From Alienimonas californiensis (lineage in GTDB: Bacteria > Planctomycetota > Planctomycetia > Planctomycetales > Planctomycetaceae): a stretch of 64,000 bases of DNA. This document shows positions 1,633 to 12,577 of this stretch, piece after piece. The notes below the pieces were generated by a model. It was given only the letters and a program-made list of their open reading frames with translations, was not told the origin of the DNA and searched no databases. A program made the position numbers and the translations under genes. Positions within the stretch are counted from its first letter, which is position 1. Every line of letters starts with the position of its first letter. The stretch covers positions 186,001-250,000 of the forward strand of contig NZ_CP036265.1 of assembly GCF_007743815.1 (NCBI RefSeq), given 5' to 3'.

Positions 1633-2433
1633 TCAGAACCGCCGCAGGTTGGCGATCTGTTCGAGCATTTTGTCCGCGGCCTGCACGACCTGGGTGTTCA
1701 GTTCGAAGTTCCGCTGCGTCTTGATCAGCCCGACCAGTTCGCGGACCGGCTCGACGTTGGACTGTTCGAGGTAGTTCTGCCGCAGCACGCCGCGGCCCTC
1801 GGTGCCGGGCTGGCCCTCCAGCGGCTGGCCGCTGGCGTCGGTCACGCTGTAGAGGTTCTCGCCGCGGTGGATCAGGCCCTGCGGGTTGACGAACCGGGCG
1901 AGCTGCAACTGCCCGACCTGCTGGGCCTGGTTCTGTCCGGCCTGCAAAACGCTGACCACGCCGTCCGGGGAGATGGACACTTCCAGCGTGTCCGGCGGGA
2001 CGGTGATGCCGGGGACCAGCCGGCGGCCCTTGTCGGCGCTGGCGAGAACCAGTTCGCCGTCCGGATTAAGGGTGAAGGCCCCGTCGCGGGTGTACATCGT
2101 CTCGTTCTCGTCCTCCACGACGAAGAATCCGTCGCCGCCGATCGCCACGTCCAACTGGCCGGCGGTCTCCATCATGTTGCCCTGAGAGAACGTCCGCTGC
2201 GTGCTGGCGACCCGGGTGCCGAGGCCGACCTCCACGCCCAGCGGGACCGGATTCCCGTTGGCGTCCGGGGCGCCGGGCAGGCGGAGGTGCTCGTAGAACA
2301 GGTCCTCGAAGTTGGCCCGCTCCCGCTTGAAGCCGGTGGTGCCGGCGTTGGCGAGGTTGTTGGCGATCACGTCGAGTTCAAACTCGAACGCGTGCATGCC
2401 GGTTCCGGCGGATTGCAGGGCGCGGAGAGACAT
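1633..2433 (-). CDS. flgG: Flagellar distal rod protein FlgG
   Basis: This 266-residue protein is the distal rod subunit of the flagellar basal body, exported by the flagellar type III system. It opens with the conserved rod N-terminus (MSLRALQSAGTGMHAFEFEL, then DVIANNLANAGTTGFKRE). It contains the central FlgG signature GQLDVAIGGDGFFVV with YTRDGAFTLNPDGELV. It closes with the amphipathic C-terminal helix (ELVGLIKTQRNFELNTQVVQ then AADKMLEQIANLRRF). Length matches the family (about 260). It sits between flgF (73 bases upstream) and flgA on the minus strand, consistent with one rod operon. No Shine-Dalgarno sequence is visible. Confidence 0.97.
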   Translation of the reverse strand: MSLRALQSAGTGMHAFEFELDVIANNLANAGTTGFKRERANFEDLFYEHLRLPGAPDANGNPVPLGVEVGLGTRVASTQRTFSQGNMMETAGQLDVAIGGDGFFVVEDENETMYTRDGAFTLNPDGELVLASADKGRRLVPGITVPPDTLEVSISPDGVVSVLQAGQNQAQQVGQLQLARFVNPQGLIHRGENLYSVTDASGQPLEGQPGTEGRGVLRQNYLEQSNVEPVRELVGLIKTQRNFELNTQVVQAADKMLEQIANLRRF

Positions 2434-2477
2434 TCGAAGGCGGAGGGACGAAGGCGGGAGGCGGAAGGGCGAACGGC

Positions 2478-2491
2478 GGGGCGTCAGCCCC
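2478..2491. repeat. Short GC hairpin GGGGC-GTCA-GCCCC
   Basis: A perfect 5-bp stem with a GTCA tetraloop lies in the 73-base gap between flgF and flgG. The same hairpin core recurs at 19264-19279, and a GTGA-loop version occurs at 19475-19488 (read on the minus strand). All three sit in non-coding DNA. It looks like a small dispersed palindromic repeat, but its function is unknown. Confidence 0.5.
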
Positions 2492-2506
2492 CCGAGGAAT
2501 CGCTCA

Positions 2507-3325
2507 TCACGGCCGGGCGGCGGCGAGCAGGCGGCCGAGGGTGTCGTCCTGGAGCTTCACGAGGTTCACGTTCGTCTCGAACCCGCGGCTGGCGGCGATC
2601 ATGGACATGGTCTCCCTCACGCTGTCGACTCCGCTGCCCTCCACGAAGCCCTGCCGCACGTTCGTCTCCCGAGGGTCGACGGGGCGGGTTTCCGCGGCGG
2701 TCAGCAGGCCGTCGCCCTGCTTGGTCAGGCTGCGGGGGTCGGTCGGTTCGACGAGGCTCAGCTTGCCCAGCGGGTAGTTCGTGCCGTCGTCGAAGCTGGC
2801 GGAGAGGGTGCCGTCCGGGGCAATGCCGATGCGGGCGGCGTTCGCGGGGACGTTCAACGCCCCCCCGCCCTCGCCCAGCACCGGCCGGCCGCCCTCCGCG
2901 GTGACCAGCGTGCCGTCCGGCCCCCGGGTGAACCGGCCGTCGCGGGTGAGAACCGGGCCGTCGTCGGACTGAATCTGAAAGAACCCGGGGCCGGCGAGGG
3001 CGACGTCCAGGTCGCCGCCGGTTTCATTCAGCGGCCCCTGGGCGAGGTCGATCGCCGTCGCGGCCAGGCCGTTGCCACCCGTCATCCGGGCGAGGGCGGA
3101 GCCGAGGTCGAACGGATTCGTGCCCGGCAGGTCGGTCAGCGACGGCGGAGCGCCCCCCTGCCCGAACGACAGGCGGTTGTCCGCGTGGGGGCGGTAGTGG
3201 CCGGCGAGGGCCAGCTCCCGCTTAAAGCCGGTGGTGCCGGCGTTCGCCATGTTGTTGGCGGTGACCTCCAACTCACGTTGGTTCGTCGCCGCTCCCTGGG
3301 CGGATTGATACAGGCCGTAGAGCAC
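2507..3325 (-). CDS. flgF: Flagellar proximal rod protein FlgF (FlgF/FlgG-type hook-basal body protein)
   Basis: The 272-residue protein has the rod N-terminus (MLYGLYQSAQGAATNQRELE, VTANNMANAGTTGFKRE). It carries the internal signature GGDLDVALAGPGFFQIQ with LTRDGRFTRGPDGTLV, and ends in the rod C-terminal helix (ETMSMIAASRGFETNVNLVK). It resembles the adjacent FlgG but is more divergent, as expected for FlgF, which builds the proximal rod. It is the first gene of the minus-strand flagellar set, with a possible sigma-28 promoter about 60 bases upstream. The FlgF/FlgG split rests on similarity and gene order; both are rod proteins beyond doubt. Confidence 0.9.
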   Translation of the reverse strand: MLYGLYQSAQGAATNQRELEVTANNMANAGTTGFKRELALAGHYRPHADNRLSFGQGGAPPSLTDLPGTNPFDLGSALARMTGGNGLAATAIDLAQGPLNETGGDLDVALAGPGFFQIQSDDGPVLTRDGRFTRGPDGTLVTAEGGRPVLGEGGGALNVPANAARIGIAPDGTLSASFDDGTNYPLGKLSLVEPTDPRSLTKQGDGLLTAAETRPVDPRETNVRQGFVEGSGVDSVRETMSMIAASRGFETNVNLVKLQDDTLGRLLAAARP

Positions 3326-3383
3326 GACGATCGCCGGTCAGGGGGAGGGGGACCGGCGCGACGGGGCGCCGGTTCTTCGGTCC

Positions 3384-3410
3384 CTATCGGCAGGGGCGCG
3401 GCGGACTCTT
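3384..3410 (-). promoter_or_regulatory. Candidate sigma-28 (FliA) promoter upstream of flgF
   Basis: On the minus strand the segment 3391-3384 reads GCCGATAG, one base from the FliA -10 consensus GCCGATAA. Fifteen bases upstream lies AAGA, a weak match to the TAAA -35 element. It is 59 bases before the flgF start, and flagellar genes are the natural targets of this sigma factor. The weak -35 leaves it tentative. Confidence 0.35.
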
Positions 3411-3469
3411 CGGCAGAATCGGCAAAGTCGCCGCAATCGATCCCGAGCGGCCCGTCAGAGCGTCGCCCC

Positions 3470-4012
3470 TCAGAGGGTCTTGATCGCCGTCAGCCCCGCG
3501 GCCCGGCGCCAGGCGCTCAGTTGGCCCCAGTGGACGGCGTCGTGCGTGGTCAGCAGATGGGTGAGCAGATCGCCAACGCGGGGGAACCGGCCGGCGAGCC
3601 GCTCGAGTTCCGGCGGCAGCGGTTCGTCCAGCGCCGCCGCAGGGACGAGCGCCGCGGCGGCGAGGACGCGGTCGTGCGTCTCCCGCACCGCGGCCCGCAG
3701 TTGTTCGCCGTTCGGCGGCGTGAAGCCGTCGGCGTAGACCAGCGGCTGGCTGCCGATGCCGAAGTTCTCCCGCCAGCCGGGCAGATCCACGGGCGTCGCC
3801 TCGACCCCCAGCCCTTTCAGCACGGTCAGCGAGAAGTTCCCCACCACCGCGACGTGCCCCAGAATCCAGACCGGCGGATTCATCCCCGGCTGCGGGCGTT
3901 CGGTGAGCCGCTCCTCGGGCAGATCGGCGGCCAGCGCGGCACCGTAGGCGGTGTGCATCTCATAGCAGCGACGGGCGTACCGCAGCGGGTCGGCGGGGGA
4001 CGGATCGGGCAT
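3470..4012 (-). CDS. DinB-like (DinB/YfiT four-helix) protein
   Basis: This small soluble protein has the DinB-like fold pattern. NPPVWILGHVAVVGNF carries the first conserved histidine, and the C-terminal LLTHLLTTHDAVHWGQLSAW carries the others. In this superfamily three histidines bind a divalent metal, and members include thiol transferases and stress-induced proteins. The specific reaction cannot be read from sequence. I start it at the ATG at 4012 (MPDPSPADP); an in-frame ATG at 4054 would add 14 residues with no visible conservation. It lies alone between flgF and the WD40/caspase gene, on the same strand as both. Confidence 0.85.
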   Translation of the reverse strand: MPDPSPADPLRYARRCYEMHTAYGAALAADLPEERLTERPQPGMNPPVWILGHVAVVGNFSLTVLKGLGVEATPVDLPGWRENFGIGSQPLVYADGFTPPNGEQLRAAVRETHDRVLAAAALVPAAALDEPLPPELERLAGRFPRVGDLLTHLLTTHDAVHWGQLSAWRRAAGLTAIKTL

Positions 4013-4096
4013 CGGACGGCTTTCCAAGGGGAGACGTCGCACCATATCCAACAATCCGCCGCGGACTCCCCCCGGTCCGCCGTTTCGTCCCCGGTC

Positions 4097-7000
4097 CTAT
4101 GGCCAGCGGCTGAGGATGATCGAGGTCGGATCGACGCCGGACATGTCGTAGAACACCGGCCGCTGCGTTCCCCCCTCGTCCCGGAGGCCCTGCAGGGCGA
4201 ACAGCCGGGGCACCGTCTTCTGGACGTAGTTCCGCACGGCGCTGAGGGAGATCTCCGCCCCGGGGGCGAGCGACATCTCCACGTCGGCGAGGTTCGGGTG
4301 CCCCGGCGGCGGCGACAGGGCCGAACCGTCGAGGATCGAGGCGACCGCCCAGGTGAACAGGCCGTTCGTGATCGGTTCGCGGCCTTCGAAGGAGTAGGCG
4401 TCGCCGGAGGAGGAGCACAGCACCGCGATCCCCGTTTTCGCCCCCACCGCCGAGGCCGCGGCGGTCAGGTCGGTCGAAGAGGAGGTCAGGGCGGCGAGGT
4501 CTTCTTCGCCGAGGAACGCGCCGTCCTGCGGAATCAGCGCCCCGCTGTGGCAGGCGTCGATCAGGATCACCACCTGGCAGGCCTTGTTCCGAACTGCGAC
4601 GGCGTGCTCCACCAGTTCCCTCGCCGACAACGAGTTCGCGCCGAAATCCCCCTCCGAAGCGTCCGCGAGCATCAGGTAGAACCGCTCCCCGACTTCGCCC
4701 CCCCGCCCGGCGGCGGACCGAGCGCCGGCCGCCCGCACCCCGTGGCCGGAGAACAGAAACAGCACGGTGTCGCCCTCCCCGACCTTCCCCGAGATCCGCC
4801 GCCAGGCGCGGTCCAGATCCTCCGCCCCGGCGTCCTCCAGCAGCGTGACGTTCACCTCGCTGTAGTGGCCCCCGGCGGTCAGCGTCCGCCGGCCGCCCTC
4901 GTCGTAGAACCGGGCGACGCGCTGGGCGTCGTCGTTGGCCAGCGCCAGCCGGCCCAGCGGCGGGGCGTACCGCTCCACGCCCGCGGCGAGCACCCACAAC
5001 TGCGGGTAGCCCTCCTCCTCCGGGATCGCCTCGGCCCGCACGTCGATGGGGGCGTCGCCCAGCGGGATGCGGTCCTCGCGCATCTCCACCTCCGCGACGA
5101 TGCGGTTCGGCCCCGGCGCCAGCCGCAGCGTGGCCTCGTAGACGCCGGCGTCCCCGGCCGTCGGCAGGGCCGGCGCGCTGGCCCCGTAGCGGCCGTTCAC
5201 GCGGAACCGCAGAGCGTCGATCGTCTGCCCCTGCCGGGGCGTCACCCGGACCCGCACCGGCAGGTCCAAGCTGTTCACGACGCGGCCCTCCCCGCCGGCC
5301 CCCCCGCCGGACCGGACCGAGAGCGACGGCGTGAGCCATTCCAGCGACACATCCGGGGAGGAGACGACCTGCTCCGGCGGCGAGTCCCGAAGGACGATCA
5401 GACGCTGGAAGAACCGCCGCTGGGAGGCCGTGACGACCTCGAGGGCGAACCCCTTCTCCCCCGGGTCTTCTGCCGTGGGGAGATACGGCAGCGACTGCCG
5501 CACGGTCGCCGTTGCCCGGGGCGGGTCGAATTGTTCGGAGGCGACCACCGGGCCGCTCAGCTCCCGCACCGCCCAACTCTGAATCGGGTCCCCCTCCGTC
5601 GCGCCGAGCGTCGCCTCGAACAGAACGGACTCCGCCGCGTGCGAGACCGACAGCAGCGACGCCATGTCGATCCGCGGCCGGGCGTCCCGCGGCGGCGGGG
5701 CGGCGTCTTCGGGCGGCACGACCGGCGGCACGACCGGCGGCTTAACGGGTGCCTGTGGCGGCGGTTCGTCCGGGAGGTCGGACTCGGCGGGGGCGGCCTC
5801 CTCGGCGGCCTGCCAGGCGCCGGCCTCCAGCAATCGGGAGACGGCCTGCGGGCGGTGGTAACGCCGCTGCACCGCGGAGAAGGGCAGGAAGGCGGGCCGC
5901 TCGCCGGCGCCGCGGTTCTCCTGCCAGCCGATCCGGTTCGCCCCGCCGCCGGCGTACATGAAGTAGCCGTCGGGGTGCCAGGCGACCCAGCCGTCGCCCC
6001 GGCCCTGCTCGACCGCCAGCGTCAGCGTGGGCATGAACACCGGCCGGGCCACGCGCGTGGCCGGCGGCAGCGGCTGGCCCTGCCGGTCGAACCGCCAGTT
6101 CGTCTGCTCGTGCCAGGGGACGTCCGACAGTTCGTCCCGGACCTGCTCGAACGTGGCGAACGCCGGCGCCCCCTCCCGCACTGCGGCGACGGTCCGCAGC
6201 AGGTCCGCCGACCGGATGCCCTTGCGGTGCAGGTAGGCGTTTTCCGCCACCGCCGTCACCCGGACCCGCCCGCCCTCCGGCGCCCGTTCGATCTCCAAGC
6301 CCCACAGTCGCTTCAGGGCCGCGTCGGCGTCGCGGTCCGGGGCGGCGGGGTCGGGCAGGTCGTCGAGGGACCAGAACCGCACCGTGCCGTCGTCCGACGC
6401 CGTGGCGAGGTACCGCCCGTCCGGCGCGACGGCCACGTCGTTCAACCGGTCCTGATGCCCCCAGAACGTCCGCAGCAGCCGGTTTGAACCGTCGGCGGCG
6501 TAGACGAACAAGGCCCCGTGCGCCGTGCCCACGGCGACCGCCTCCGCCGACCGGCCCCGCTGGGCCGGGATGAGCCGAAAACAGGTGGCCGGTCCGGCGT
6601 ACGGCTCCAGCGTGAGCCCGGCGGCGATCTCCGCCCCGCGACGGTCGGCCGGGCCGGGGAGCGGGGCGGGAACCAGCCGCTGCCGCTTCGGAGCGAACCG
6701 GAAGGCCGTCGCGGGGGCCTCCCGCGTCGCGGCGACCTGGGTGACGATCGAGTACCCCGTGCCGCCGTCCCTCGGGTCGGCCGGATCGAAGGCGACGCGA
6801 TCGAACCGCGGCCCCCCGACCAGCGTGCGAACCAGCCGCTTCGTGGGCACGTCCCAGATCTGCACGTCGTTGCCCTGGGCGAGCGCCAGCGTGCGGCCGT
6901 CCGGCGAGAGGGCGCAGCCGGACGGCGGCGTCAGCCGGTCGGCCACGGCTCCGAGGGTCAGCGACACGGCGCCGGTCCGCACGTCCCACACCACCGCGGA

Positions 7001-8251
7001 ACCGGCGGACGGGTCGGTCGCCTCCCCCGCCCCGGCCAGTTGGCTGCCGTCCGCGGAGAAGGCCAGCGACATCTGGAACCCCGCCCCCGGCGGGATCGGC
7101 AGGTCGGCGAAGGCCCAGGCCCCGCCGGGCCGGCGGATCCAGACCAGCACGCGGGTCTTGCCGGCGGCGTCGACGTACGCCGCGGCGAAGCGATCGCCGA
7201 CCGGCGAGGCGGCCAGCGCCGTCACCCAGAAGGCGCCGCCCGGCAGCGCCAGTTCCGTGCCGCCGCCGTTGGTGGAGAGAAGATGCAGTTTCCACAGGTG
7301 AGGCGCCGGCCCGGGGGCGGGGGCGACGACGTCAGTCTCCCCGACGAGCGCCACCGGCCACCGCGGGATCGGCAACCAGCCGTCGCCCTGCGGCAACTGC
7401 ACGGCCGCCCGCAACTCCCGGGCCGGCCCGAACGGCGCCTGGGACCGCACCAGCACGCGGCCGGCGTCGTCGACGGAGGCGGCGGTCGTCCCGGAGGGCG
7501 ACACGGAGAGATCGTGTATCACCGCTCGATGCCCGACCGCGGCCGCCCCGTCCGGGCCGGCGGGTTCGTAGTGCAGCGGTTCGCGACTGTCGTCGTTCAC
7601 GTCGACCCACTGCAAATCGCCGATCCGGTCCGTGCCGCCGTATCCGCCGATCACCGCTGCAGTCGTGCCGTCGGGCCGGGCGAAGACCTCCACGGCGCGG
7701 ACCGCCCCGAACAGGCCCTCCTCGGCCAGCCAGCGGTGCGTGGCGACGACGGTCCCGGCGTTCCAATCCCAGACCAGCGCCCGCTTATCGTGCCCGCCGG
7801 AGAGGAGGCGCCGACCGTCCGGGGTGAAGCAGAGGGCCTGCACGCTGGCGGCGTGGCCGTCGCGGTCGCTGGCGACGAACAGCTGCCGCCGCCCGTTGGC
7901 CTCCCGCTCCGCCGCCGTCGGCGCCCGCACCACGGGCGCCGACGTGACGGGCGCCGACGTGACGGGCGCCGACGTGACGGGCGCCGACGTGACGGGCGCC
8001 GACGTGACGGGCGCCGACGTGACGGGCGCCGACGTGACGGGCGGCGCTGTGACGGGCGGCGCCGCGACCACCGGCGGGGAGCTCGGGTTCGCCGTTGCCG
8101 GGGGCACGTTCGGCGTCGCCACGCCGACCTGCGCGAGCGCCGTCCCGCCGGTCGCCGTCAGGGCCGTGAGCGACGCGACGGCCAGCGACAGAGCCGTCAC
8201 AACCAGCGACGTGGTTCCGGGGGGGGAACAGGGTTCTGACCGAATGAACAT
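4097..8251 (-). CDS. Secreted WD40-repeat protein with C-terminal caspase (peptidase C14) domain, catalytic dyad intact
   Basis: The 1384-residue exported protein has four parts. First is a signal sequence (SLVVTALSLAVASLTALTAT), followed by a low-complexity linker with seven TSAPV repeats. Next comes a WD40 beta-propeller (for example LCFTPDGRRLLSGGHDKRAL and VAPDGRYLATASDDGTVRFW). A conserved spacer follows (WHPDGYFMYAGGGANRIGW). The C-terminal caspase-like domain begins near residue 1080 and keeps both catalytic residues: His1170 in FLFSGHGV and Cys1234 in LIDACHSG. It probably cleaves proteins after basic residues, as metacaspase and orthocaspase relatives do, but the substrate is unknown. 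The ATG at 8251 is preferred over 8317 because the signal peptide follows directly. It diverges from the barrel gene at 8483, and a paralogue lacking the cysteine lies at 9866. Confidence 0.9.
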   Translation of the reverse strand: MFIRSEPCSPPGTTSLVVTALSLAVASLTALTATGGTALAQVGVATPNVPPATANPSSPPVVAAPPVTAPPVTSAPVTSAPVTSAPVTSAPVTSAPVTSAPVTSAPVVRAPTAAEREANGRRQLFVASDRDGHAASVQALCFTPDGRRLLSGGHDKRALVWDWNAGTVVATHRWLAEEGLFGAVRAVEVFARPDGTTAAVIGGYGGTDRIGDLQWVDVNDDSREPLHYEPAGPDGAAAVGHRAVIHDLSVSPSGTTAASVDDAGRVLVRSQAPFGPARELRAAVQLPQGDGWLPIPRWPVALVGETDVVAPAPGPAPHLWKLHLLSTNGGGTELALPGGAFWVTALAASPVGDRFAAAYVDAAGKTRVLVWIRRPGGAWAFADLPIPPGAGFQMSLAFSADGSQLAGAGEATDPSAGSAVVWDVRTGAVSLTLGAVADRLTPPSGCALSPDGRTLALAQGNDVQIWDVPTKRLVRTLVGGPRFDRVAFDPADPRDGGTGYSIVTQVAATREAPATAFRFAPKRQRLVPAPLPGPADRRGAEIAAGLTLEPYAGPATCFRLIPAQRGRSAEAVAVGTAHGALFVYAADGSNRLLRTFWGHQDRLNDVAVAPDGRYLATASDDGTVRFWSLDDLPDPAAPDRDADAALKRLWGLEIERAPEGGRVRVTAVAENAYLHRKGIRSADLLRTVAAVREGAPAFATFEQVRDELSDVPWHEQTNWRFDRQGQPLPPATRVARPVFMPTLTLAVEQGRGDGWVAWHPDGYFMYAGGGANRIGWQENRGAGERPAFLPFSAVQRRYHRPQAVSRLLEAGAWQAAEEAAPAESDLPDEPPPQAPVKPPVVPPVVPPEDAAPPPRDARPRIDMASLLSVSHAAESVLFEATLGATEGDPIQSWAVRELSGPVVASEQFDPPRATATVRQSLPYLPTAEDPGEKGFALEVVTASQRRFFQRLIVLRDSPPEQVVSSPDVSLEWLTPSLSVRSGGGAGGEGRVVNSLDLPVRVRVTPRQGQTIDALRFRVNGRYGASAPALPTAGDAGVYEATLRLAPGPNRIVAEVEMREDRIPLGDAPIDVRAEAIPEEEGYPQLWVLAAGVERYAPPLGRLALANDDAQRVARFYDEGGRRTLTAGGHYSEVNVTLLEDAGAEDLDRAWRRISGKVGEGDTVLFLFSGHGVRAAGARSAAGRGGEVGERFYLMLADASEGDFGANSLSARELVEHAVAVRNKACQVVILIDACHSGALIPQDGAFLGEEDLAALTSSSTDLTAAASAVGAKTGIAVLCSSSGDAYSFEGREPITNGLFTWAVASILDGSALSPPPGHPNLADVEMSLAPGAEISLSAVRNYVQKTVPRLFALQGLRDEGGTQRPVFYDMSGVDPTSIILSRWP
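7931..8065. repeat. 15-bp tandem repeat encoding TSAPV units
   Basis: Seven consecutive 15-base units (7931-8035; six identical, GACGGGCGCCGACGT on the plus strand, with one substitution in the first) are followed by two degenerate units. Read on the minus strand they encode TSAPV repeats between the signal peptide and the WD40 propeller of the caspase protein. Because 15 is a multiple of three, copy-number changes keep the frame and only alter linker length. Confidence 0.95.
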
Positions 8252-8471
8252 CGGACGCTCTGGTTCCGAAGGATTGATCGGGACCGGACAGTCCCGACAC
8301 CGGCGGGGAACAGACAAAAAACCTCGTCCCCCCAGCGATTTTAGTGAAGAAGGCGAGCGTTCGGCAGGCGCTGGGCCGTCCGGCCTTCAGGAACGCGTGA
8401 AACCGCTCCGATATGGAACGAGTCGCGGACGCTCCGTGTTTTCGGCGTCACGCTCACGTTCCACTCCGGTC

Positions 8472-8478
8472 AAGGAGG
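8472..8478 (+). promoter_or_regulatory. Strong Shine-Dalgarno sequence (AAGGAGG)
   Basis: AAGGAGG ends four bases before the ATG at 8483, and it fixes that start. I found no comparably strong site at the other starts I checked in this window, so this gene may be translated unusually efficiently. Confidence 0.8.
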
Positions 8479-8482
8479 ACCG

Positions 8483-9757
8483 ATGCTGCCCCCCCTGAAA
8501 CGTCACGCCGATCGCCTGCGGCGGGCGGCGGTCCTCGGCATTGTCGCCGGCGGCGCCGCCACCCCCGCGTTCGCGGGTCCGCCGCCGTGCCCCCCGCCGG
8601 CTTACAACCCCTGCCCGCCGGCCTACAACCCCTGCCCGCCGGGCGTGATCACGCCGGTGACGCCGGCGCCGCCGGCCCCGATGGACGGTTCCGCCACGGA
8701 GCTGCTGCCGGAGACGTTCTCCCGGACGGCCCCGCCCTCGCCGGCGGCCCAGAACCTCGTCGCCAACACGGCCAACCCGCTGGCCGGCCGCTCCGGCCTC
8801 GCGGCGGTCGGCGGCGGCGTGGGCGACCCGGGCTACATCGACCCCGCCGTCGTCGCCAGCCGCTTCCGCCTCCGCTACAGCGGCGCCCGCGACGGCAACA
8901 GCGACCGCGGCGAATTCCTCTACGGCGCCTACGACACCCCGGCGCTGCAAGCGTCCTTGCCCCCGGGCACTCCCGCCGTGTTCATCGGCCCCGGCAACCC
9001 GGGCAACGTCGCCGCCGTCCCCGGCCAGACCGTCAGCGGCCCGACCGGCCCCGTCCGGCCGGTGATCGACGGCTTCGATTACGACGAGATCTCCGCCTAT
9101 CTCGAACTGGAAGTGGTCGAGGGCGTCTCCGCCTTCGTTGAGGTCCCCTGGCGGGACGTCAGCGGCTACGACCAGTTCCGCGATCAGGGTTTCGCCGACG
9201 ACGGTCTCGGCGACATCAACGCCGGCGTTCGCGTATCGCTGTACGACGACTGCGACACCGCCCTCACGTTTCAGTTGATGTACCAGACGAACACCGGCGA
9301 TCCGGACTTCGGCCTGGGCAACGGCACGCAGTTCATCGTGCCCGGCCTGCTGTTCCAGCAATCGCTGTCGGACGACCTGCACCTGTTCGGCGAGGCGCAG
9401 TATTACGTCGACGCCGGCAACGGCACCGAGTTCAACGGCGAAGACTACACCAGCGACGTGCTCCGCTTCGGCCTCGGCGCCGCCCTGGACCTGGTCGAAA
9501 CCCGCGACACCAACCTGCAACTCCTCAACGAGTTCGTCGGCTGGACCTTCTACGACGGCCAGCAGTCCGAGTTCAACCCGGCGACCCGCCAGATCGACGT
9601 CACCGACGCCGACGGCGAAACGATCGTCAACTACAAGGTCGGCCTGCGGTACCTGTTCGGCCGGCAGAGCGTTTACGCCGGCTACGGCCTGGCCCTCACC
9701 GACGACGTGCTCTACGACGACATCGTTCGCCTTGAGTACTCCGTCCTGCTGGACTAG
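8483..9757 (+). CDS. Probable outer-membrane beta-barrel protein (unknown function)
   Basis: The 424-residue protein starts with a signal peptide (VLGIVAGGAATPAFAG), then a Pro/Tyr/Cys repeat (two near-copies of PPAYNPCP). The rest is rich in alternating aromatic/polar strands such as YLELEVVEGVSAFVEVPW, TALTFQLMYQTN, LFGEAQYYVDAGN and QSVYAGYGLALTDDVLY. It ends in a strand with alternating hydrophobics (VRLEYSVLLD), typical of small outer-membrane barrels of the phenol-degradation MetA-pathway/transporter type. No ligand can be predicted. It lies between two caspase-like genes on the opposite strand and shares a 230-base divergent region with the WD40 caspase. The strong Shine-Dalgarno site suggests high expression. 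A strong hairpin terminator follows. Confidence 0.8.
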   Translation: MLPPLKRHADRLRRAAVLGIVAGGAATPAFAGPPPCPPPAYNPCPPAYNPCPPGVITPVTPAPPAPMDGSATELLPETFSRTAPPSPAAQNLVANTANPLAGRSGLAAVGGGVGDPGYIDPAVVASRFRLRYSGARDGNSDRGEFLYGAYDTPALQASLPPGTPAVFIGPGNPGNVAAVPGQTVSGPTGPVRPVIDGFDYDEISAYLELEVVEGVSAFVEVPWRDVSGYDQFRDQGFADDGLGDINAGVRVSLYDDCDTALTFQLMYQTNTGDPDFGLGNGTQFIVPGLLFQQSLSDDLHLFGEAQYYVDAGNGTEFNGEDYTSDVLRFGLGAALDLVETRDTNLQLLNEFVGWTFYDGQQSEFNPATRQIDVTDADGETIVNYKVGLRYLFGRQSVYAGYGLALTDDVLYDDIVRLEYSVLLD

Positions 9758-9801
9758 TTCGACCTGCTTGTTAGTTCGACCTGCTGTGAGTTCGACTTGT
9801 T
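9755..9801 (+). repeat. Three short direct repeats at the end of the barrel gene
   Basis: TAGTTCGACCTGCT occurs at 9755-9768 and 9772-9785, and a diverged copy GAGTTCGACTTGTT at 9788-9801, with a spacing of 16-17 bases. The first copy includes the stop codon of the barrel gene. They lie just before the terminator hairpin. Confidence 0.7.
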
Positions 9802-9850
9802 GAATGAGCTGAAGGGTCGGCTCAACAAGACGGACTGACCTCCGCACCGA

Positions 9851-9884
9851 ACCCGCCGCGACGGCTCAGTCCGTCGCGGCGGGT
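9851..9884. terminator. Perfect 14-bp hairpin between convergent genes
   Basis: ACCCGCCGCGACGG (9851-9864) pairs exactly with 9871-9884 around a six-base CTCAGT loop. On the plus strand it is followed by TCCTCGTTTG. It lies 93 bases after the barrel gene and overlaps the last codons and stop of the minus-strand caspase-like gene, so it could end transcription in either direction. Confidence 0.75.
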
Positions 9885-11692
9885 TCCTCGTTTGAGGGCT
9901 CGCGGTTCGCCGAATCGCCCGGGGCGGCCGGCAAAACGAAGCGGACGCGGACCGGCGGGAACGCCCCCGCGGTTCCGGCCTCCCCCCCGGCTCCGGCGAC
10001 GACCAGCGCCAGCCGGCGATCGACGAGTTCGTCCCGCTCGCGGAACTCCAACTGGGTCGAAGCGGCCTTCGCGGCGGCCGGGTCGACGTTTGCGACCACG
10101 GCCCACAGGTTCTCCGCCACCGTGTCGCTCTGCAGGAACATCCATTCGTCCAGGAGGTCCTCGACCGTCCTCCGCCGGTCCTCGTCGACCGTCGTCGGGG
10201 ACGCCGGGGCGGGGTGAATCCGTTCGGCGCCGGCGAGCGCCAGCAGGCGCCGGGCGTTCAGCGCCGGCAGGCGGTAGGGCGAGCCGAGCACTTCAATTCT
10301 GTGGGGCGTCGGCCCGGGGAGCAGCGCGATCCGTTCCGTCCGCAACGTGCGGGCCCCGTCCTCGGCCTCCGGCCAGGCGGACAGCAGGCGAGGTTCGAAG
10401 GGCGCGCCGGGCTCCGGCGAGACCGGACCGGCGTCGACGACGTACAGGTACAGCAAGCCGCTGCGGGGGGTGAGACACAGTTCGGGGCGGGTGCCGGGGG
10501 GCAGGCGGTCGGCCTCCAGGTCCAACGGGGAGCGATTGCCGCGGCGATTCTGCACCCGCCACTCGAACGCCTCGAACCCCCGCGGCGACGCCGCCTCGCC
10601 GCGGCCGAGCAGTTCCTCCCGCACCAGGAAATCGTCCCGCTGCAGATTGCCGTGGAGCGCCACCGCGGTCGCCGTGTTCCCGGGCTGATCGTCCGACGAC
10701 TCCAGTGCCTCGCACAGCGCCCGCCACGTCACGTCCGGCTGACGCAGGAGGCTCAGCATCTCGCTCGTGAACCGGCTGGCGGAACCGTCCGGGGAGCTGC
10801 CCGAGACGCCGCCCGCGGCGGCGTTCTTGGACGCGGCGTCGGTCCGGAGGGCCGCGGAGGCGGCGAAGAACAGCAGCGTGCAGGAGTCGTCGAACCGCGT
10901 CCGGCGGAGATCCACGGCCTGCCCGTCGGTCGCCGATTTCCGCCGCGGGTCGGCGTCCCGCGGCGCCTCCAGAAACCCGCCGGGCGCCATATTCGTCTGC
11001 GGGCCGTCCGCCGAGGCCCCCGCTCCCCCGACCCGGCCGGCCTCGACGACGACCACCAGTTCGTCGCAGCGCCCGGTCAGGGCGCACATCTGCAGGAAGA
11101 ACTCGTCGTCGCGGACGAGGTCCTCCTCGGCGTATTGGGACGGTTTCAGCGGGGCGCCGGCCGCCGGGCCGGTCGGGATCATCACGAACGCCTCGTCGAT
11201 GAAGTCGCCGGCCCCGGCGCCGTGGGCGCCGACCTGCTGAAGCTCGTCCCCGTCCTCGTCGGGACGGATCGTGCCGTGACCGCTGAAGTAGAAGAAGATC
11301 TGCTTCGCCTTCGGCCCGTCGGCGGGAATCGCGGCGAGCGCCTGATCGAACTGGGTCAGGAACTGCGCCCGGGTGGCGTTCCGCAGGAGGTGAATCTCCT
11401 CCTCCGCATAGCCCGCCTCGTCGCGCAGCCAACGCTGCACGGCCTCCAAGTTGGCCGACGAGGCGGACAGTTCGAACCCCGGATAGGCGTCGTTGCCAAT
11501 GAGAATCGCGTACCGCCCGGGCGCGGCGCCGTCTGCCGCGACGACCGACGGGGCGCCGCCCATGAGCAGGACCAGCAACGCCGTCCCGCGGAACGTCGCT
11601 CTGCTCAACGCCCCCCCGGCAGACCGCGCCGGCCGGCCGGGCCGGGAGGTGCGAGGAACGTCGCGGCGGGCGGGAGGCTCCGGGGAAGACAT
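9866..11692 (-). CDS. Secreted caspase-like protein with the catalytic cysteine lost (pseudo-caspase)
   Basis: The 608-residue protein has a hydrophobic export signal (TALLVLLMGGAPSVVAADG) and then a caspase p20-like fold: RYAILIGNDAYPG, a helix, LRNATRAQFL, and the conserved His139 in FYFSGHG. At the position of the catalytic block (DACHSG in the neighbour at 4097) it reads EAGRVGG, so Gly219 replaces the cysteine and Glu217 the aspartate. Proteolysis by the usual mechanism is therefore unlikely. A second half of about 300 residues (FEWRVQNRRGNRSPLDLEAD, LCLTPRSGLLYLYVVDAG) has a beta-rich look and carries no motif I recognise. It may act as a binding or regulatory partner of an active caspase; that is inference. 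It lies convergent to the barrel gene. Confidence 0.85.
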   Translation of the reverse strand: MSSPEPPARRDVPRTSRPGRPARSAGGALSRATFRGTALLVLLMGGAPSVVAADGAAPGRYAILIGNDAYPGFELSASSANLEAVQRWLRDEAGYAEEEIHLLRNATRAQFLTQFDQALAAIPADGPKAKQIFFYFSGHGTIRPDEDGDELQQVGAHGAGAGDFIDEAFVMIPTGPAAGAPLKPSQYAEEDLVRDDEFFLQMCALTGRCDELVVVVEAGRVGGAGASADGPQTNMAPGGFLEAPRDADPRRKSATDGQAVDLRRTRFDDSCTLLFFAASAALRTDAASKNAAAGGVSGSSPDGSASRFTSEMLSLLRQPDVTWRALCEALESSDDQPGNTATAVALHGNLQRDDFLVREELLGRGEAASPRGFEAFEWRVQNRRGNRSPLDLEADRLPPGTRPELCLTPRSGLLYLYVVDAGPVSPEPGAPFEPRLLSAWPEAEDGARTLRTERIALLPGPTPHRIEVLGSPYRLPALNARRLLALAGAERIHPAPASPTTVDEDRRRTVEDLLDEWMFLQSDTVAENLWAVVANVDPAAAKAASTQLEFRERDELVDRRLALVVAGAGGEAGTAGAFPPVRVRFVLPAAPGDSANREPSNEEPAATD

Positions 11693-12076: not shown

Positions 12077-12577
12077 ATGTCCGCTTTTCGCCCCACCCTG
12101 CTGGCCGGCCTGATGGCCGCGGCGGCCGCCGGGCTCGTGTGCGTGCCCGGCGCGTTCGACGCCGCGTCGACCGCCGAGGCCAACGCCACGAACGCCCGTC
12201 GCCAGTACTACTCCGGCTGGCACTACTCCGCGCCGTCGCGGTACCACTACCGCGTCTACCACTATAAGCCCACGCCGACCTACACGAGCTACCGCCGGCG
12301 GTACGTCGTCTATTACCCGACGCAGCCGCGGTACGTGTATTATTATAACCCGTACAGCCACCGCTACCTCGGCCGGTTCGACCTGGAAGCCGAGGGCGAA
12401 GGGAAGTACTCCCAGCTGGCCGAGAAGGACCAGAAGGAGAACCTCGAGGAGATCCCCGAGTCGGCCTTCCCCGCTCTGGACAAGATGCCCGTGATCCCCG
12501 ACGCCGAAGACGGCGAGCGGATGGCGCCCCTCCCCGAAGGACTGCCCGAGGACGAGGGCGAAGGGTCCGAGGACTAA
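12077..12577 (+). CDS. Secreted Tyr-rich protein of a planctomycete type, unknown function
   Basis: This 166-residue protein has a signal peptide (LLAGLMAAAAAGLVCVPGAF). A middle section is extraordinarily rich in tyrosine and arginine (RRQYYSGWHYSAPSRYHYRV, YVVYYPTQPRYVYYYNPYSH). The C-terminal third is acidic and Pro/Glu-rich (LEEIPESAFPALDKMPVIPD). I recall similar small proteins from planctomycete genomes, but none with a known role. The Tyr-rich, basic middle suggests binding to a polymer or surface outside the cell; this is inference. The gene stands alone, with a candidate promoter upstream and a hairpin terminator 57 bases downstream. Confidence 0.8.
   Translation: MSAFRPTLLAGLMAAAAAGLVCVPGAFDAASTAEANATNARRQYYSGWHYSAPSRYHYRVYHYKPTPTYTSYRRRYVVYYPTQPRYVYYYNPYSHRYLGRFDLEAEGEGKYSQLAEKDQKENLEEIPESAFPALDKMPVIPDAEDGERMAPLPEGLPEDEGEGSED

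Follow-up and report, generated by a model that had tools for sequence, protein, structure and literature searches.

To our knowledge, little function has been described for exported bacterial caspase homologues. Substituted catalytic dyads are not rare among the homologues that have been counted: they make up 16% of the bacterial and 36% of the planctomycete sequences in one survey (PMC3501461) and 8.6% of the bacterial orthocaspases in a later set (PMC6426788). WD40 repeats are the commonest extra domain of prokaryotic metacaspases in the former survey (73 of 671 sequences); about 70% of the effector-position caspase domains of VMAP/MoxR-vWA conflict systems are described as inactive (PMC7159879). 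Here we analyzed a window of 64,000 nucleotides (positions 186,001 to 250,000 of NZ_CP036265.1, a single contig of 5,475,215 bases) from the marine planctomycete Alienimonas californiensis CA12 (genome label G000), in which two genes for putatively exported caspase-like proteins flank the gene of a probable outer-membrane barrel. The original prediction for this locus, made from the sequence, read the two proteins as an active/dead pair and considered a small proteolytic circuit conceivable. Our results support an association of the barrel with the caspase fold in the family and do not support a conserved active/dead circuit; a mechanism is proposed below in conditional terms.

The two caspase-like proteins

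The coordinates and strands originally given for the three genes were correct. Both caspase-like genes lie on the minus strand and the barrel gene on the plus strand between them; the WD40-caspase gene diverges from the barrel gene and the second caspase-like gene converges on it. Because the barrel gene separates them on the other strand, the two caspase genes do not form one operon. Each protein starts with a hydrophobic stretch resembling a signal peptide, which in the second begins at about residue 37-39; this agrees with the predicted export of both, as read by inspection rather than by a predictor.

The WD40-caspase (4097-8251, 1384 aa) was matched by Pfam WD40 (E 4.9e-24) and by Peptidase_C14 (39.1 bits, the cut-off being 21.4), and the PDZ-like and Ig-like parts between these domains are our reading of a sequence in which Pfam has no match for them. 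Its dyad is complete, as predicted, with His1170 in SGHG and Cys1234 in DACHSG, both also invariant in the sister species Alienimonas chondri. Judged by its sequence, the protein is most likely an active envelope protease. Seven TSAPV units (7931-8035), absent from A. chondri, follow its signal-like leader.

The second protein (9866-11692, 608 aa) was matched by Pfam C14 with 32.9 bits over residues 60-148. It retains SGHG with His139 but reads EAGRVGG (residues 217-223, codons at 11024-11044 on the minus strand) in place of the Cys block, as the original prediction had noted. Gly219 was placed at the Cys column by an alignment of 85 C14 domains of the family and by another of 14 homologues. 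The His-Cys dyad of an active orthocaspase is accordingly incomplete, and the combination of a caspase fold (Pfam and structure-model matches) with a Cys-to-Gly substitution is that of a pseudo-orthocaspase. Structure prediction, suggested earlier as a check, was run on this protein and recovered a caspase core at good confidence: in the AlphaFold model the block means of the predicted local distance difference test (pLDDT) were 76-92 for residues 61-140 and 73-82 for residues 181-220. Caspase-1, MALT1 and metacaspases were the closest matches in the PDB, the metacaspases including C147G mutants of metacaspase 9 from Arabidopsis. With a mean pLDDT of 53 the model is weak as a whole, and for that reason the C-terminal region, of no recognized kind, was left without interpretation.

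No plausible substitute for the active-site cysteine was found, in agreement with the predicted inertness. Cys203, Cys209, Cys271 and Cys327 are all present in A. chondri alongside its catalytic Cys, and in the model Cys209 and Cys271 stand at strand starts, whereas the active site is at a strand end; takeover of catalysis by another Cys was therefore rejected. A frameshift or sequencing slip was likewise rejected, as the site differs from that of A. chondri by several in-frame point changes and the gene is open over 608 codons without a stop or frameshift.

We collected 85 Pfam-detectable C14 domains from 26 of the 32 barrel-bearing genomes described below; the catalytic His is present in 82, the Cys in 81 and both in 78, and a contig end truncates one of the seven without a full dyad. 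Gly is aligned at the Cys column in the window protein alone, and G093_C2, which reads DSGKG with a gap there, may be a second case. Paired C14 genes, at most 10 kb apart, are common (29 of 85). CA12 has eight Pfam C14 matches and A. chondri three; four more of the CA12 genes lie in two tight pairs, one at 1.36 Mb and the other at 3.58 Mb. Another genome has six C14 genes inside 14.5 kb (G119:C147, 29309-43775).

Comparison with the sister species

A. chondri LzC2 (G007, locus L075) was the only other genome of the genus compared. The trio has the same gene order and orientation in both species, and the divergent intergenic region (8252-8482) spans 231 bp in CA12 and 230 bp in A. chondri; the convergent gap is 108 and 61 bp, respectively. 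Amino acid identity is 82% for the barrel, 58% for the WD40-caspase and 51% for the second caspase.

The active site of the second protein differs between the species. A. chondri carries GRCDELVVVVEACHAGG (EACHAGG) where CA12 carries GRCDELVVVVEAGRVGG (EAGRVGG), with the codons GCC TGC CAC GCC against GCC GGC CGG GTC. The strand preceding the lost Cys, GRCDELVVVVEA, is the same in both; only the site itself has changed. Because the site of the sister species is intact, the dead site looks recent. From the sequence state observed in the two species we infer the direction of the change and the inactivity of the CA12 protein: since A. chondri keeps both Cys and His, the ancestral second protein most likely had its full dyad; the ancestor would have had two complete caspases, and one of the two sites would then have been lost in CA12. 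The pairwise ratio of nonsynonymous to synonymous substitution rates (dN/dS) is about 0.51 for the second gene, similar to about 0.53 for the WD40-caspase gene, a two-species estimate that does not distinguish a branch with relaxed constraint.

The dead partner is thus not a conserved state, as the A. chondri orthologue reads EACHAGG and both members of its pair have the full dyad; as a design, active/dead is not conserved. The second protein had matches in only four of the 120 family genomes, namely the two Alienimonas species and two genomes with short caspase-domain matches; a two-sequence profile matched five of 170 genomes, at full length only in Alienimonas; and among 20 loci returned from further genome contigs, only A. 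chondri was near full length. An alignment of the second protein with 13 of these loci kept the Cys column everywhere except in the window protein. The suggested search for the same three-gene order in other planctomycetes found it in the two Alienimonas species only (120 or 170 genomes and the 20 further loci).

The barrel gene and its relatives

The barrel gene (8483-9757, plus strand) encodes a 424-aa protein with a signal-like and proline-rich N-terminus. Its ribosome-binding site, AAGGAGG at 8472-8478 on the same strand, stands four bases ahead of the ATG and is the same in A. chondri. It had been called the best of the window; the motif is indeed there, but another gene of the window (62828) has AAGGAGG too.

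Relatives of the barrel were found in 32 of the 120 family genomes, and the set used here comprises 35 barrels, 33 of them outside Alienimonas, with second fragments of one gene excluded. Among 23 aligned members, PF13557 was matched by nine and PF13505 by one, at E up to 0.1, and F or Y is the last residue of most of 25 proteins inspected. For the window protein itself there was no Pfam match at E 0.1, PF13557 and PF13505 included, and its last residue is Asp. Its structure model, built with two sequences only, had a pLDDT of 29.7, and a profile of 23 relatives gave no match in the PDB at E 10. The product is a probable outer-membrane barrel, an identity taken from its relatives.

The barrel tree divides into clades of 13 and 22 rows (100/100), with Alienimonas in the latter and closest to G021 (99/97). 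The smaller clade is associated with PF05936, which we take to be TssK, and with neighbours that we take to be further genes of the type VI secretion system (T6SS): 12 of its 13 barrels share a contig with a PF05936 match at most 20 kb away, and the thirteenth genome (G115) has one on another contig. The larger clade has PF05936 within 20 kb in two cases (G069 and G001), so that 12 of the 14 barrels near PF05936 belong to the clade other than that of Alienimonas. Membership of the window barrel among T6SS accessory genes was rejected, as the only PF05936 match of the genome is at contig position 412880 and the barrel at 194483.

Caspase-like genes near related barrels

Judged by Pfam C14 alone, there appeared to be no link between barrels and caspases outside Alienimonas. 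This view was overturned by a degenerate caspase domain in a barrel neighbour of locus L076 and then by profile searches. The barrel has a caspase-like gene at a distance of 10 kb or less at 13 of 35 loci, or 11 of 33 outside Alienimonas, against 0 of 40 control regions (Fisher p 5e-5); at the genus level, the link is present in 7 of 22 genera (p 3e-4). The controls were regions of 19.5 kb at round positions in 10 of the same 30 genomes, searched with the same three detectors; these genomes include three of the eleven with the link (G088, G085 and G050), and related genomes are not independent. A general WD40 profile, which was not a criterion, matched two control regions.

The neighbours at the eleven loci, about 1800-aa WD40 proteins in four and about 1600-aa proteins in seven, all lack both catalytic residues and are invisible to Pfam as caspases. 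The barrel neighbour in G080 represents the first kind: it has 1821 aa, a signal-like N-terminus, WD40 repeats, a weak match to PDZ (15.6 bits, below the cut-off of 27) and, in our reading, Ig-like repeats. Its C-terminus, together with eight relatives, matched the C14 profile with 97.2% probability (E 3.4e-11), and five column shuffles gave at most 0.3%. Both catalytic positions are lost in all nine of these WD40-pseudocaspases, with YYRGRE or similar for FSGHG and FLDIEN or similar for DACHSG. The domain was matched in 19 of 120 genomes, the residues being read in nine. Directly upstream, on the same strand, a Ser/Thr kinase gene was present in all six genomes inspected (G080, G060, G085, G021, G023 and G001), with an FGE-sulfatase domain in all of these but G060 and G085; no kinase gene adjoins the Alienimonas trio.

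Neighbours of the second kind follow the barrel on the same strand in G015, G022, G034, G050, G086, G104 and G115, those of G086 and G104 being detected as homologues of the G015 protein. Five are complete open frames of 1573-1716 aa, and the G022 and G115 copies are cut by contig ends. All seven have neither His nor Cys at the catalytic columns, the G050 block being read from a family alignment. They adjoin the other barrel clade, mostly in T6SS loci. Pfam scans of three complete proteins found a VWA domain in those of L206 and L209 and none in L214:4558-9705. On the other side of the G034 barrel, another gene retains the His. Two large caspase-like proteins and a WD40-pseudocaspase stand in a row about 9-30 kb from the barrel, near T6SS genes, in G069 (L182, 1-19499).

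WD40-pseudocaspases and barrels also occur together at the genome level. A barrel of either clade is present in 17 of the 19 pseudocaspase genomes and in 15 of the remaining 101 (p 4e-10; 2e-5 at the genus level). Where an Alienimonas-clade barrel shares a contig with a pseudocaspase, the nearest pair is 0.5-28.5 kb apart in eight of nine genomes and 302 kb in one. The pseudocaspase and barrel of G001 and G069 are both near T6SS genes, which may be the cause of their linkage.

A tree of 34 shared regions separated 11 pseudocaspases from a group formed by the Alienimonas WD40-caspase and 20 rows labelled active (97/96). Both catalytic residues are present in 18 of the 21 rows so labelled, and L048, L051 and L053 have Leu for His. 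L137, also labelled active, has a very long branch and groups with the pseudocaspases.

Evaluation of the explanations

The explanation that we consider best, and somewhat probable as a whole, is that the trio is ancestral, that the barrel and a caspase-fold protein form an envelope module, and that the second caspase is a pseudoenzyme of CA12. The trio would be a gene cluster from the common ancestor of Alienimonas, whose products would be an outer-membrane barrel, a divergently encoded exported WD40-caspase (most likely an active envelope protease) and a second exported caspase-like protein. The last would have been complete in the ancestor and, on losing its nucleophile in A. californiensis, would have become a pseudo-orthocaspase capable of binding at most. 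The barrel and the WD40-caspase probably work together. Because barrels are repeatedly found near large caspase-fold proteins that are dead elsewhere, the fold would probably act in the envelope as a platform for binding or assembly; since the WD40 partner in Alienimonas comes from a mostly intact WD40 branch, a protease may hold the partner's place there.

A wider form of this proposal, which we put forward tentatively, is a planctomycete envelope module in which an outer-membrane barrel is coupled to a caspase-fold scaffold of two forms. One would be a giant exported WD40 protein with a dead C-terminal caspase domain, encoded behind a Ser/Thr kinase gene; the other would be the protein of about 1600 aa with a dead N-terminal caspase domain at T6SS loci. 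Alienimonas would then have the version whose scaffold is still a protease, with a second caspase added, and would be a natural intermediate between active caspase modules and dead ones, one species being already without the second site.

Several observations weigh against the proposal that barrel and caspase fold belong together. For the 33 barrels outside Alienimonas, Pfam alone found no C14 gene nearby, and 22 of their loci yielded no caspase-like gene up to 10 kb from the barrel; some of these stop at a contig end, which biases the count against a link. The pseudocaspase profile was built only from barrel-bearing genomes and may favour matches there. The G095 pseudocaspase is 122 kb from the barrel, and a second barrel in G065 is 1.8 Mb from the pseudocaspase of that genome. 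The intergenic region shared by the two Alienimonas species conserves little apart from the ribosome-binding site. As the WD40-caspase of Alienimonas lies outside the pseudocaspase branch, its adjacency to a barrel is not a matter of simple common descent. The WD40-caspase-like neighbours of barrels thus stem from two branches, which points either to a replaced partner or to a chance adjacency in Alienimonas, and the latter could have been inherited by the two species.

Chance in its full form, with three unrelated envelope genes as neighbours and the second caspase decaying in CA12, is rather unlikely in our view but is the strongest rival. The caspase genes evolve faster than the barrel gene, the trio is limited to one genus, and the flanking flagellar, DinB and sulfatase genes are unrelated. 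However, the order was kept in both species despite two genes gained or lost just outside the trio, barrels of this family are linked with caspase-like genes in seven other genera, and the strand ahead of the lost Cys is unchanged.

We regard as improbable a regulator-protease circuit in CA12, in which the dead caspase would bind and control the active WD40-caspase by analogy with c-FLIP and caspase-8. Intact and dead dyads do occur in nearby genes, the dead gene is open throughout with a dN/dS like that of the WD40-caspase, and active/dead pairs are known in eukaryotes (PMC6426788). The sister species nevertheless retains the Cys, the barrel gene separates the pair on the other strand, and outside the genus no relative of the second protein adjoined a WD40-caspase in the genomes and loci searched; G063 and G067 have several WD40-caspase-like genes close together. 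The authors of PMC6426788 also consider such a role improbable for prokaryotic pseudo-forms. What stands of the originally proposed pair is the trio, kept in both species, and the barrel-caspase link in other genera; the dead member is intact in A. chondri and the neighbours elsewhere are dead. That the CA12 second protein is still a hydrolase through another nucleophile is very improbable, for although the protein retains His139 and most of its core, EAGRVGG has no Cys, Ser or Thr, and the remaining conserved cysteines coexist with the catalytic Cys in A. chondri, two of them at strand starts.

Under the preferred explanation, the recurrent barrel/caspase-fold neighbourhood offers a concrete partner candidate for caspase-like proteins. 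Because the catalytic site was lost between two Alienimonas species, active-looking and dead orthologues can be compared directly. Planctomycetes also contain a set of degenerate caspase domains that Pfam searches miss.

Other features of the locus

PADLOC assigned its general caspase model to each of the two caspase proteins and placed one HEAT-ARM model on a WD40 stretch. Membership of the EACC1-associated caspases (NF047832) was rejected, the scores being 38.1 and 33.7 bits against a curated cut-off of 140. A 1391-aa open frame at 2312-6487 on the plus strand, opposite the WD40-caspase gene and its neighbours, is expected from the very high third-position G+C content and is not evidence for a gene. 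A small tyrosine-rich, secreted-looking protein is encoded at 12077-12577; it has no family match over the cut-off and, by its ends, also occurs in A. chondri (L075, 14870-15511). In A. chondri two genes (L075, 11397-14802), one with a PSCyt1 match, separate the second caspase from the gene of this protein; CA12 has no room for them at this position.

Comparison with known systems

Searches of the literature on planctomycete type VI secretion, with or without caspases, and on bacterial WD40 pseudocaspases found nothing that resembled the proposed barrel-caspase module. Its barrel component is related to the PF13557 and PF13505 barrels through its relatives, not through a match of its own. The second protein resembles the pseudo-orthocaspases in combining a p20-type caspase domain with a substituted His-Cys dyad, of which a His-Gly form is described in Synechococcus PCC 7502 (PMC6426788, PMC3501461). 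It differs in that Alphaproteobacteria or Cyanobacteria account for 90% of the forms counted there, whereas the loss here took place, as far as the two species indicate, inside one planctomycete genus with an intact sister copy. The WD40-caspase shares WD40 repeats and a C14 domain with the WD40-containing prokaryotic metacaspases of PMC3501461, but has a leader resembling an export signal and an adjoining barrel gene. As in the VMAP/MoxR-vWA conflict systems, active and inactive caspase-like domains are found together; unlike those NTPase-centred multi-gene systems, the locus has no such gene among the neighbours scanned, and its proteins carry signal-like leaders.

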